Source: Paramecium tetraurelia
Taxonomy: Eukaryota; Ciliophora; Oligohymenophorea; Peniculida; Parameciidae
Assembly (NCBI RefSeq): GCF_000165425.1
Contig: NW_001799499.1
Coordinates: 310,001-374,000, forward strand
DNA: 64,000 nucleotides
Reading direction: 5' to 3'
Shown: positions 13,326-57,627 of the stretch, in pieces
How the letters are laid out: the number at the start of each line of letters is the position of its first letter
Numbering within the stretch: position 1 is the first letter of the stretch
Translations under genes and position numbers: made by a program
Notes under the pieces: generated by a model
What the model saw: only the letters and a program-made list of their open reading frames with translations
Databases searched by the model: none
What the model was told of the DNA's origin: nothing

Positions 13326-13971
13326 TCAGCAGCATTTTTTGTTTTTTTGTTAAACTTAATACAGACTTTTAGACGTACCTCTAACAAATTCAGGATTCTC
13401 TAATTCCATTTGGGATGCCATGGTGCCAACTTTATCGAACATTTCCTCGATATTTTATTTATATCAAACCTTCTATTCCTTATCCAGTCTTTGCGGATAC
13501 TAAAAATAGCTCAGCATTAATTGAAACTGCAAATTTCTTAGCTTCCGTATAGGTGACAACGTCATTCTCCAAATCAACTTTATTCCCACATAAAGCCAAA
13601 ATCATCCTCTTTCCATCGCAATTCTCCTTCAAATCCTCATGCCATCTTGCTAAACTGCGAAAAGAATCCTTATTTGTAATATCATACACCAAAATGGCAA
13701 TTTAGGATTCTAATATTCTATATATCAAGTTCAAACGAATACATCTATAATATATTTTAGTAAGGGCACGAAAAGCTTCTTGACCTGCTGTGTCCCACAA
13801 TTGAAATGTTATATCCTCTCCATTTATGTTAATGGTTTTAGATAGAAATGAACTTCCAATTGTTGGTTCCGTCTTCCCATCGTATTAATTGTTGACTATT
13901 CTTTTTACAATGCAACTTTTTCCCACATTTGAACTTCCTAAAAACACTGTTTTAAATTATCTATTGTTCAT
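13326..13971 (-). CDS. Rab-family small GTPase
   Basis: A canonical Rab. G1 P-loop GSSNVGKSC, switch I threonine in EPTIGSSF, G3 DTAGQEAF, G4 GNKVDL and G5 SAKTG are all intact, so it should bind and hydrolyse GTP. RabF-like blocks (IYYRQSQIAILVYDIT, ARWHEDLKE) fit Rab5/21/22-type proteins, but I would not fix the subfamily. A 33-nt intron lies near 13711-13743. The C-terminus ends KNKKCC, a Rab dicysteine prenylation signal. It is reached only if about one net base (for example a 25- or 40-nt intron) is removed near 13430-13475. Without that, the frame ends early in IPNGIRES. The convergent gene at 12342-13272 ends 53 bases away. Confidence 0.9.
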
Positions 13972-52354: not shown

Positions 52355-54469
52355 ATGTAGAATTTCGAAGATGAAACATTTGTCCGCTAACTGATATCTG
52401 ATATAACTAGACCAATTGCTGATAAGTAACCAAATCATTTTTAGATAGACTTGAAAAGATATAGAAGGAATTCGAAAATATTAGGCTTAGTATCCACAAA
52501 CACAGTAGAATGATAGATATTATGTCAGATAAATCAGATCAATTATCTTTTGATATGTACTGCAACATCATTATCATAGCAAACTCACTAATGATACAAT
52601 CGAGAATCTCAGAAAGAATATAAAGGAAGATTAATAAAAAGTATTTGAAATTGAAAACCATTTTAATTTGGATTTCAATAATACCAGACTAGAATAAGGA
52701 GTCATAACACAAGAATAGGATAATCTAAAGAAGGAAATCAAAATTTTAGGCGATGTTTAATAAAGTTTGACTGAGAGAGTTGAAATATATAATAATTACC
52801 TAAGTCAGAAATTGTACTAACAAGAGTTTACAATTAGTAATGTCGATACCTCTAATTCAAAAGTCATCAAAGAAATAACAAATTTAAATCTCAAAGTATC
52901 TAATCAATCTATTTAATAGAATCAGGAAGAATTATAAGCTTAAAAAATATAAACTTAAGATATACTAGCAAAAATGTAAAAGAATTCATAAGATCTCAAT
53001 AAGACCCTCTGCAGTTAATAATGGATGTAGGATATGATCGTTGAATTAAGATAAAAATCATAATTCTATCTTACTATTGATTAAGTAGATTCGCAATAAA
53101 AGTAACAAACTCCTTAAAATAATACTCCTCCTGTGATTACTTAGAGTTGTTAAATTTCAAAGTATAAATCATATTGTTATTAGTTAAGTTGATTAATAAG
53201 ATTTCTCTGAAATTATTGCTGAAAAGCTTAATAAACTAAAAAATTAAATTAATACAGAAATGTAATAATAAAAAGAATAAAATTCTTTCTAAATAGAAGA
53301 ATTAAAAAAAGCATTAAATACTTTTAAGTCAGATTTTGTTAGAAGGCTTCAATTAATCTAATCGAATTTAAAGGACACAAATGATAAGTTATTAATCTCA
53401 GTAGGTGAAGTTCAAGAATAAAAGTTGAGTTTGAAATAACAAATCAGTTAAATTAATGAATTGCTCCAAAGATAATTTTCAAAGATTTCTTAAGATATTT
53501 AAACTATATAAACTAATATAACTGGTTTGGATCTTCGGATGGCAGAAACACATTCGACAGTTATTCACGTTTAAGATAAGTAAAAGGAGGCATTTGTCAA
53601 TCAGACACCCTTGGAGTATTTTAATAATTAAAATGATATTATCAGTCTACTGCCTATAAAATAAGAGTCCTAATTTTATGATTCTTTTTAATTCAATAAT
53701 ACTGTTACTTAAAAATTTATCAAAACAGATTAAACTTTATAATTTCAGCCTTAATAATTGAACAGTGTCAAAAAATAAAGAGAAATCTAATTTGTTGAGC
53801 CAGAATAAACTCAAACAGTTACAGAAAACTTAGAAAATTAAAATAATTTGATTACTCCCTAAAGAAAAGTTCAAAATGAAATAATTAAATTAAAGTCAGA
53901 CTTCTTTAATGAATAGCAATACAATCAAAATCAAATGAATAAATTGCTAAAATAGAAGACCATTACAGAATAAGCACTATAAGATGTTGACAAATAACTA
54001 AAATAGTTTCATTCATATTTTGGGGTCATTTTTTCTTTGATCTTACATAATGAGTTAACTGGGACAGATTACCAAGCCAAGATTGTAGGAAATGGGTTTA
54101 AATTTGAATTCTTACCCTTTTAATAGGATGAAAAAACAATGATGTTATATTAAAACAACAAGATTTCAAAAGTAGATCTGTTAATGAAGACTATTATTTG
54201 TACTAACTCTATGATAGCAAAACAAAAATAGAATGGCCTCTAGTTTTAATAAGAAAAATAGAAGTAAAATACAGAAATAATTCGAGAATTATAAAGTAAA
54301 ATTTATAAATATCCTTACAGCCATGTATATCAATAAAAAGAATAGACTCATAGATGACAAATACTAGACTGAAAGACTTAATTTATCTCTAGACACACCA
54401 GCATATTAGTAGACACCAAAATAGAAAGTGACGAAGGTCCTAGTAAAATATAAGAAATTATTGGATTGA
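52355..54469 (+). CDS. Long coiled-coil protein, unknown
   Basis: About 670 residues starting MQNFEDETFVRQLISDITRP. Nearly the whole length is Q/E/K/N-rich coiled coil (IENLRKNIKEDQQKVFEIEN; KLNKLKNQINTEMQQQKEQ). A more globular C-terminal part contains GTDYQAKIVGNGFKFEFLPF and ISKVDLLMKTIICTNSMIAK. Introns of 23-25 nt near 52425-52447 (GTAACC...GATAG), 52558-52580, 53171-53195 and 54301-54325 restore the frame. The composition, with many TAA/TAG glutamines, is typical of ciliate cytoskeletal proteins. No family is recognised. Confidence 0.75.
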
Positions 54470-54497
54470 TTATATTTTTGTAATTTAAACGATTAAC

Positions 54498-55992
54498 ATG
54501 GAGAATTAATTAATTGCTTTGGTGGGTGATCCTGCTGTTGGGAAGACTTCTATTGTCAAATATTTAAAGGGTCTAGAATTTGAGGAGGATTATAGTCCAA
54601 CAGAATAGATAGAAAGCACAGATGTTACAATTCAAGATAATGAAACTATAACTATTTATGATACTCCAGGGAATACAGCAGAGAGAAAATAGGTCATTGA
54701 AATACTGAAGAGTGTCCAAATAGTGTTTGTATGTTTTGATGTTGAAAATATCGATTCATTTGATTCAACATTACAATGGTTGGATGACATCAAAAAATAA
54801 ATAAACAATTCGATGCAAGTTTGTCTTGTAGCTTGTAAAATTGATTCTGATAACAGACAAATATCTTAAGAGCAAGCATTTGAATTTATTAATGATTATC
54901 CAAATGTTGAATATTTGGAAATTAGTGTAAAGACGGGTGAAAATATGGATATGCTCATCGATGTAACTAAAATTCATTATTCATCAGAAAATACCAGTAA
55001 CAACACCTTAAGGGGAAGGAGACCTATAATAATCTTACAGAACTTAACAATCTAATAAATAATCTGAGAAACCTCCCCATAGTCCCGAAAGATAATCATA
55101 GACCTATAAGTCTTAAACAAGTTTATTGAATAAGGAGGAACCTCTTTGGAAGGTCTATGACTTTTTATTTCCAACTGGGAGAGTTGCTAAACTAGTAAAG
55201 ATATCAGATGTCAATGCTAAAAACCTATCCATCTAAGATATATTGTTTAAATTGCAATTAAACTAAAGTTACCCAGTTGTAAATCTAATTGGAGCAAAGG
55301 AAACAAATAAGGGTAAATTCTATGCAGGAATTGCAAGAGCTTGCTTTAATACGGTATTAAATAGTTCTAATTGAATTTAGGATGCAGTAATAGTGGACAG
55401 TGGAATTTCAACAGGAATTGAAAAATATGCGATTAGAAGAGGAGTCAAACTGATTGGAGTTGCTCCTGAACAAGAAGTCAAATATCCAAATTAAAATACT
55501 GGATTTATAGACCCTTTTGAAATTAGTAATGGACATACTCACATATTTCTTTTAAGTAATCTTTACTAATTGCTATATAGACAATAAAGAGAAAATGATG
55601 GTTTTTGGATTGGAAGGGGTTTTTAAAATTAATTTGTGTAAAAAGTAAAAATTTAATTATTAAAATTTAGATTGGCTGAAGGTAGATTGGCCAAAAATGG
55701 TTAAAGAGAAAGTTTGAAAGTTGTTCACATACTTTTAGGTGAATAGGAAGGATTTTTAAATGAATTACAATAGGCAGTTATGGCTAATCATCCAATCATA
55801 GTGATAAAGGGATCTCCTTTGTGCGATTAATACTTTTAAAATTATAATAATCCTCATGCAAATTATTCAAATGCAAGTAATTATGTTATCTTATATAAAT
55901 AGGTTTTGGATAATTAGTAAGAAAAGGACACTTTTATGGACTAAACAGTTTAGATTCAGAAGATATTGCCTAGTACGTCCATTTCTTTTTGA
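54498..55992 (+). CDS. Small GTPase fused to a TRPM-type SLOG/LSDAT domain
   Basis: About 480 residues starting MENQLIALVGDPAVGKTSIV. Residues 1-165 are a Ras/Rab-like GTPase: P-loop GDPAVGKT, G3 DTPGN (normally DTAGQ), G4 ACKID (normally NKxD), G5-like SVKTG. The variants make normal GTP hydrolysis uncertain. A Q/S/K-rich linker follows. The second half matches the eukaryotic LSDAT/SLOG domain of TRPM channels: PVVNLIGAKETNKGKFYAGI, AVIVDSGISTGIEKYAIRR, LIGVAPEQEV, GHTHIFLLSN, VVHILLGEQEGFLNELQQAV and HPIIVIKGSPLCD. SLOG domains bind nucleotide-derived ligands such as ADP-ribose. Introns: 22 nt at 54997-55018 and 27 nt near 55353-55379. No ATG lies in frame between the halves, so they form one protein. 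No membrane helices are seen. Confidence 0.8.
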
Positions 55993-56158
55993 CTGTGACT
56001 CCATATAATTGATTAATTATTCTTATTGTCAATTAATGATACATATTTTGATGATTTAAAACTACTGATTCGTTTAGATTAAGCATCCTATGTTTATTGA
56101 AGAATCTAAAATAATTATTAATAAAAAAAGTTATAAAACTGATAGTATATGCTAAATA

Positions 56159-56518: not shown

Positions 56519-57627
56519 TCAAATCTGCTTGATAAAAGTAAATTTTTAATCCGAAGGGTTAATTAAGTACTTCAAAACAGATTCTTCTGGCTTGAAGTTA
56601 TAATTAGACATAAAATTGAATCTGTTTGCAAAGATTTTAAAAATCTCCTTTATTTTAAAACTGCCACTTCCAATATCGTGATCAGGATCTTACGGACTTA
56701 TCAACGAAAACTTATCATCAGGAGTAGGTTTATTTGTTATACTTCCTCCATTTATCATCAAAATTCGCTTTCTTTGATAATCAAATTTCTAGCCATAGAA
56801 TTCTAAGAACCTTAATATATACTCTCCTAAAGTTATATTTTTCAATTGTTCTTATTTTTTATTCGCAAATGCCTCTTTTCTGATTTCTCTTAAGAAGGCT
56901 AAAATCATTTGAAAAAGTAAAAAGGAGCCGATTCCTCCACTATATGTTTCATTTAACTCGCGCTACTTCAACATACATTTTAAGATCATTATTAGATATT
57001 TGAATTCAGGGTAGATTGTAAATGCTTTTCGAATTTCATCAATTTATTTTAAGCCATCCATCTAATTAAATGATATATCAAATTGATATTGAGATTCAAC
57101 TTCAAAGAATTTTATAATTGGTACTTTTGCATTGGCAATTAAATTAACATTTTCAAACTTATCACTTTTCATCAAACTTTAGGCTACTTTTTTATACAAT
57201 TCTTTAGCAGACATACTTTTGTCTATCATCACAACATCAATATCTGCATTAGGCAAATAAAGTTTGGTTTTAAAACTACCAAATGCTTAGATATCAACTT
57301 CTGAAGCAAATTCCTTTATAAATGTTTCAACTCTCATGATTGCTTGTTCTCTTCTTCTATGTTCTTCAGATGTAGGAATGATGTAATCATAAAAATCAAT
57401 GATCTCATTGTGAAATCTAATTGTTGGATGTTTAATAGATGCTGTATTTTGACTAAGCCATGGAGTAATCTCGCCGTCAAATTAGTACTCATTTTACTTT
57501 ATTTATTTTTATCTATTTTGCAAATTCAATCTTACATATTAGGTTCGTCATCATCGATGGTTATTGCTTGATTTTTATTTTCAATATTCTTAATTCTCAG
57601 AGATATATTCTTATGTTTTTCTTACAT
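56519..57627 (-). CDS. Trf4/PAPD5-type non-canonical poly(A) polymerase
   Basis: About 355 residues starting MQEKHKNISLRIKNIENKN; the second codon is TAA (Gln) and a 23-nt intron near 57540-57562 joins this to TPWLSQNTASIKHPTIRFHN. The nucleotidyltransferase motif is FGSFKTKLYLPNADIDVVMI, with the two aspartates of the DxD pair intact. A third acidic position may lie in VPIIKFFE. The central domain has the block SGGIGSFLLFQMILAFLREI and the late block QKFDYQRKRILMINGGSI. Such enzymes add short tails to nuclear RNAs for exosome decay (TRAMP) or stabilise mRNAs. No zinc finger or C-terminal extension is present. Confidence 0.92.

Follow-up and report, generated by a model that had tools for sequence, protein, structure and literature searches.

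What role could a protein play in which a small GTPase is joined to a SLOG/LSDAT domain? The gene that raises this question lies on the forward strand at positions 54498-56012 of the window, the 64,000-nucleotide stretch of Paramecium tetraurelia DNA that was analyzed here. A first-pass annotation of this DNA had recognized a single gene in which a SLOG/LSDAT domain comes after a small-GTPase domain, and this architecture was confirmed by Pfam matches to Ras and LSDAT_prok and by a second copy of the gene. It does not follow, as had been proposed, that the protein is soluble, senses NAD-derived ligands, and links them to membrane traffic; among solved structures, the SLOG half is closest to a presumed component of the central pair at the ciliary tip. 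Based on the homology to that relative (PDB 9nw3, chain 6A), the presence of SPEF1 in the same entry, and the marginal matches to TRPM2, we consider the gene most likely to encode a SPIKE1-type ciliary-tip protein with an N-terminal Rab-like G domain, for which the location, the nucleotide binding, and the role as a switch are predicted. Among the matches listed from the open-licence literature (titles and abstract openings), none described a fusion of a GTPase with a SLOG domain.

Once its five introns (25-27 nt each) are spliced out, the gene yields a 461-aa product under translation table 6 (TAA/TAG = Gln), with an in-frame TGA at 54429 upstream of the ATG and a TGA stop at 56010-56012. Exon 1 (54498-54962) encodes the G domain (residues 1-155), at the end of which lies the joining intron (54963-54987, 25 nt, GTA...CAG, phase 0). 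A polar linker follows (54994-55143, residues 158-207), and the SPIKE1-type SLOG/LSDAT domain (55144-56009, residues 208-461) is split by the remaining four introns: intron 2 (55354-55380, 27 nt, phase 0), which contains an in-frame TGA, intron 3 (55556-55580, 25 nt, phase 1), intron 4 (55645-55670, 26 nt, phase 2), and intron 5 (55877-55902, 26 nt, phase 1). All five are found at the same residue and phase in the second copy, on contig C3 of the same genome, where the joining intron also has the same length. The model is further supported by more distant relatives, since intron 3 is shared with a gene on a ciliate contig (L031) and introns 4 and 5 match in place and phase those of C218, a SLOG-only gene of the same genome. 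The joining intron had earlier been placed at 54997-55018 (22 nt), a choice that looked plausible because it leaves the downstream frame unchanged; the intron at 54963-54987 takes its place. The end of the gene likewise moves from 55992 to 56012, as intron 5 shifts the stop from 55990-55992 to 56010-56012. With the resulting last exon, the product aligns with 9nw3 chain 6A up to the final residue of the chain; with the uncorrected exon, the match had ended at residue 297 of 346. Both changes, to the joining intron and to the gene end, were made on the strength of the second copy and the comparison with the 9nw3 chain; a previous 463-aa gene model had a wrong last exon.

The gene on C3 encodes the same GTPase-SLOG fusion, again as a 461-aa product, and the two SLOG halves are identical at 249 of 254 residues. 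Comparison of the two genes gave a dN/dS of 0.014 overall, 0.031 for the G domain, and 0.008 for the SLOG domain. The linker carries 27 synonymous and 2 non-synonymous differences, with its dS saturated. This pattern of substitution indicates that the protein sequence is maintained in the linker as well as in the two halves, and purifying selection on all three is strong.

The G domain matches Pfam Ras over residues 6-156 (E 3.2e-24, 85.8 bits against a cut-off of 21.6) and NCBIfam small_GTP (64 bits, cut-off 42.5). The G boxes appear in order: G1 GDPAVGKTS, switch-I Thr35, G3 DTPGN, G4 ACKID, and G5 SVKTG. Of these, DTPGN and ACKID had already been picked out in the first-pass annotation, and they are identical in both fusion copies. 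Read from the protein sequence, the P-loop Lys, the switch-I Thr, the DxxG, and the KxD of G4 are all retained. In Ras numbering, the domain has an Asn at the Gln61 position and a Cys in place of Asn116, and because of these two replacements GTP binding or hydrolysis may be poor. The best solved matches are Rab6 proteins, from E 4.6e-16; no 9nw3 chain is found among the best 60 of 748 PDB matches to the G domain. Like Rab-family GTPases, the domain thus has its G1-G5 boxes in order and the Ras profile over its whole length. Unlike them, it carries the replacements at Gln61 and in G4, is followed by a SLOG domain, and has no C-terminal prenylation cysteines, the protein ending in VTPYN. Rabs attach to membranes via such C-terminal cysteines, and their absence here, together with the TRPM2 arginines that are not kept (see below), disfavors a sensor acting in membrane traffic. 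No free-standing close relative of the G domain was seen in the same genome, where the best-scoring match apart from the two fusion genes (C64) has 33% identity to it. The window itself contains a small GTPase-like stretch at 13462-13944 on the reverse strand (323462-323944 of contig C188) that is 32% identical to the G domain (E 4.3e-6).

The SLOG half was assigned by profile to the same superfamily as the N-terminal MHR1/2 region of TRPM2 (LSDAT_euk), and the blocks by which it was originally recognized (VVNLIGA, DSGISTG, LIGVAPEQ, GHTHIFLL, HILLGEQEG, and IIVIKGS) are all confirmed. Its description as TRPM-like fared less well, as the best profile is Pfam LSDAT_prok (E 4e-26, residues 251-415, 92.0 bits against a cut-off of 25.4), whereas LSDAT_euk, the TRPM type, scores 23.7 bits with the 461-aa protein, below its cut-off of 25.7. 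A fragment carrying the earlier, wrong C-terminus scored 26.1 bits with LSDAT_euk. A six-frame search of the genome with LSDAT_euk was silent, and its controls were silent likewise. Of the 8 Pfam matches to the 461-aa protein at E <= 0.001, none is a channel family, nor is any of the 17 at E <= 10 for the previous 463-aa model. An AlphaFold2 prediction of a partial SLOG domain (exons 2-3, translated across the unspliced intron) had a mean pLDDT of 41.7 and was set aside. Two scans of viral contigs returned no relatives.

The closest solved relative gives the SLOG half its most specific context. It matches PDB 9nw3 chain 6A at E 4.3e-90, with 140 of 251 residues identical (56%), through the last residue of the chain. 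This chain, labeled 'Cation channel family protein', is present in three copies in the entry, as is a SPEF1-like 'Sperm flagellar protein', which is matched by a CH domain of the same Paramecium genome at E 2.1e-38. A preprint on the central pair at the Tetrahymena ciliary tip describes SPEF1 together with an LSDAT protein named SPIKE1 (TTHERM_000686039), a GFP fusion of which is found at ciliary tips (PMC11642885). In that study, SPIKE1 sits on TLP2 with an 8-nm repeat on the tip central pair, part of the spike density is left without an assigned protein, and the discussion states the function of SPIKE1 to be unknown (PMC11642885). Of the five open-licence papers that contain LSDAT as a whole word, no other concerns cilia, to go by the titles. 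Entry 9nw3 matches the tip study by virtue of SPEF1 in the same entry. A literature search found no paper with the code 9NW3, and the preprint gives placeholders instead of accession codes (its methods list has SPIKE2 where the figure has SPIKE1; PMC11642885). Because of these placeholders, we infer that 9nw3 chain 6A is the SPIKE1 of the tip study. Provided that it is, the homology along its length places the SLOG half of the window protein in the SPIKE1 family. The two proteins share the SLOG/LSDAT domain and the same C-terminal end. They differ in what precedes it: in the 346-aa chain 6A, 91 residues come ahead of the alignment, not enough to form a G domain, whereas the window protein has a complete Rab-like G domain and a linker.

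It was also considered whether 9nw3 could be a structure of the doublet microtubule or radial spoke. Neither a PACRG fragment (16 matches) nor a radial-spoke-head fragment (9 matches) hit a 9nw3 chain, and this candidate was rejected; passages from the papers on the A-C linker and radial spokes contain nothing pointing to 9nw3. Of three p25-alpha matches (L038, L039, and L040), L038 and L040 were compared with the PDB, and neither was identified as a TLP1/TLP2 homologue: no 9nw3 chain was hit, the former matching ordinary TPPP entries only and the latter only cullins, weakly. This result counts against a place at the tip. Two PACRG-like matches of equal score lie on contig C156, oppositely oriented and separated by about 7 kb, at 354411-355022 on the reverse strand and 362149-362760 on the forward strand.

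In our working model, a TLP2-like scaffold would attach the SLOG half to the central-pair microtubules of the tip at each 8-nm repeat, following the Tetrahymena pattern, and the linker would hold the G domain outward. The GTP/GDP state of the G domain would then control the binding of a tip partner, for example in IFT turn-around or tip assembly. Docking is probably the main role of the SLOG half, and a ligand pocket is possibly retained. The ciliary tip may in this way have a built-in GTP switch. The fusion of a conserved GTPase to a SPIKE1 relative also names a specific partner and a specific activity that could be tested there. Since part of the Tetrahymena spike is unassigned, it suggests that a GTPase partner of SPIKE1 should be looked for in Tetrahymena, where 17 Rab-like proteins lack prenylation sites (PMC2954822). 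More generally, it may indicate a GTPase partner of SPIKE1 in ciliates in which the two are separate proteins. That a Rab-like GTPase is the natural partner of SPIKE1, with a separate Rab-like protein filling the unassigned part, is a conjecture that we advance with considerable doubt. On that conjecture, every 8-nm repeat of the central-pair tip would bear a GTP-driven switch, a candidate for the control of IFT turn-around or tip assembly.

The first alternative is that the protein belongs to the SPIKE1 family but works away from the tip, for instance at basal bodies or on vesicles, with SLOG-only relatives doing the tip job. We regard this as unlikely, and it draws on the distribution of the family. 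In the same genome, LSDAT_prok has at least seven matches at four places: the window, C3, C218, and C228. The genes on C218 and C228 encode SLOG-only proteins with a short polar start before the SLOG domain, and the family members of Tetrahymena and of the ciliate contig L031 have no G domain either. The L031 gene uses ciliate codons, has a single 22-nt intron, and codes for a SLOG-only protein of 340 aa. This contig (DYPS01000045.1, 1-6781) is filed in a Desulfosporosinus MAG and has, by eye, a RUVBL-like neighbor. Identity to the window SLOG domain is 119/245 for C218, 120/245 for C228, and 117/252 for L031. The two SLOG-only copies count against placing the fusion at the tip, as does an incomplete C218 fragment that matches 9nw3 chain 6A at E 2.7e-69, its match starting 12 residues further upstream than that of the fusion. 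In addition, C218, C228, and L031 begin with a short polar N-terminus that is missing from the fusion. Against this, the SLOG half of the fusion is closer to the 9nw3 chain, at 56% identity versus 52-53% for C218 and C228 (128/243 for C218), and there are few differences between the two fusion copies. An unrooted tree of six sequences separates the fusion pair from the C218/C228 pair and, at a support of 60, does not single out either as orthologous to SPIKE1.

The second alternative retains the soluble nucleotide-sensor switch, in which the SLOG domain would bind ADP-ribose or a related nucleotide and thereby control the G domain. Membership in the SLOG family by profile speaks for it. The matches of the SLOG half to TRPM2 are marginal (E 0.08-1.2), compared with 4.3e-90 for the 9nw3 chain, and the protein has no channel. 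In zebrafish TRPM2, gating by ADP-ribose is lost when R278 and R334 are mutated together (PMC6914804). In alignments with positions counted by hand, the window protein has a Lys at the Arg278 position, and a counterpart of Arg334 is absent, so that neither of the two is kept as arginine. It also has a Phe at the position of Tyr271, which we take to be a residue of the ADP-ribose site of TRPM2. All six family sequences that were compared have the Lys, and this conserved basic residue can be read in favor of a sensor. The SLOG half may thus bind a ligand, but the TRPM2 site is not kept. We consider a SPIKE1-type tip protein more likely than a free sensor of ADP-ribose, and we would give a nucleotide-controlled switch only a small chance.

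The weakest alternative is that two separate genes merely look fused. The spliced protein has Met only at residues 1, 106, 150, 152, 341, 342, and 394, and the claim in the first-pass annotation that no in-frame ATG lies between the halves therefore stands after splicing, for the stretch from the G domain to the SLOG core; it does not stand if the joining intron is unspliced. In that case, the exon 2 frame extends back to an ATG at 54961-54963, with more ATGs further up, and a start at that position is allowed by the frame alone. Although this ATG, which overlaps the intron, would open the exon 2 frame in the window copy, and although, by eye, that frame is free of TGA in the C3 intron, we consider two genes very improbable, as the joining intron is the same in both copies, the linker is constrained at the protein level, and a separate promoter would be needed inside the GTPase coding sequence.

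The preceding gene on the forward strand has its apparent stop at 54469 (by eye), leaving about 28 bases (54469-54498) before the ATG of the fusion gene, and the corresponding gap at the C3 copy is about 34 bases (by eye). Downstream, an open frame on the reverse strand of the window (56519-57547) has, by eye, the look of a poly(A) polymerase-type nucleotidyltransferase.
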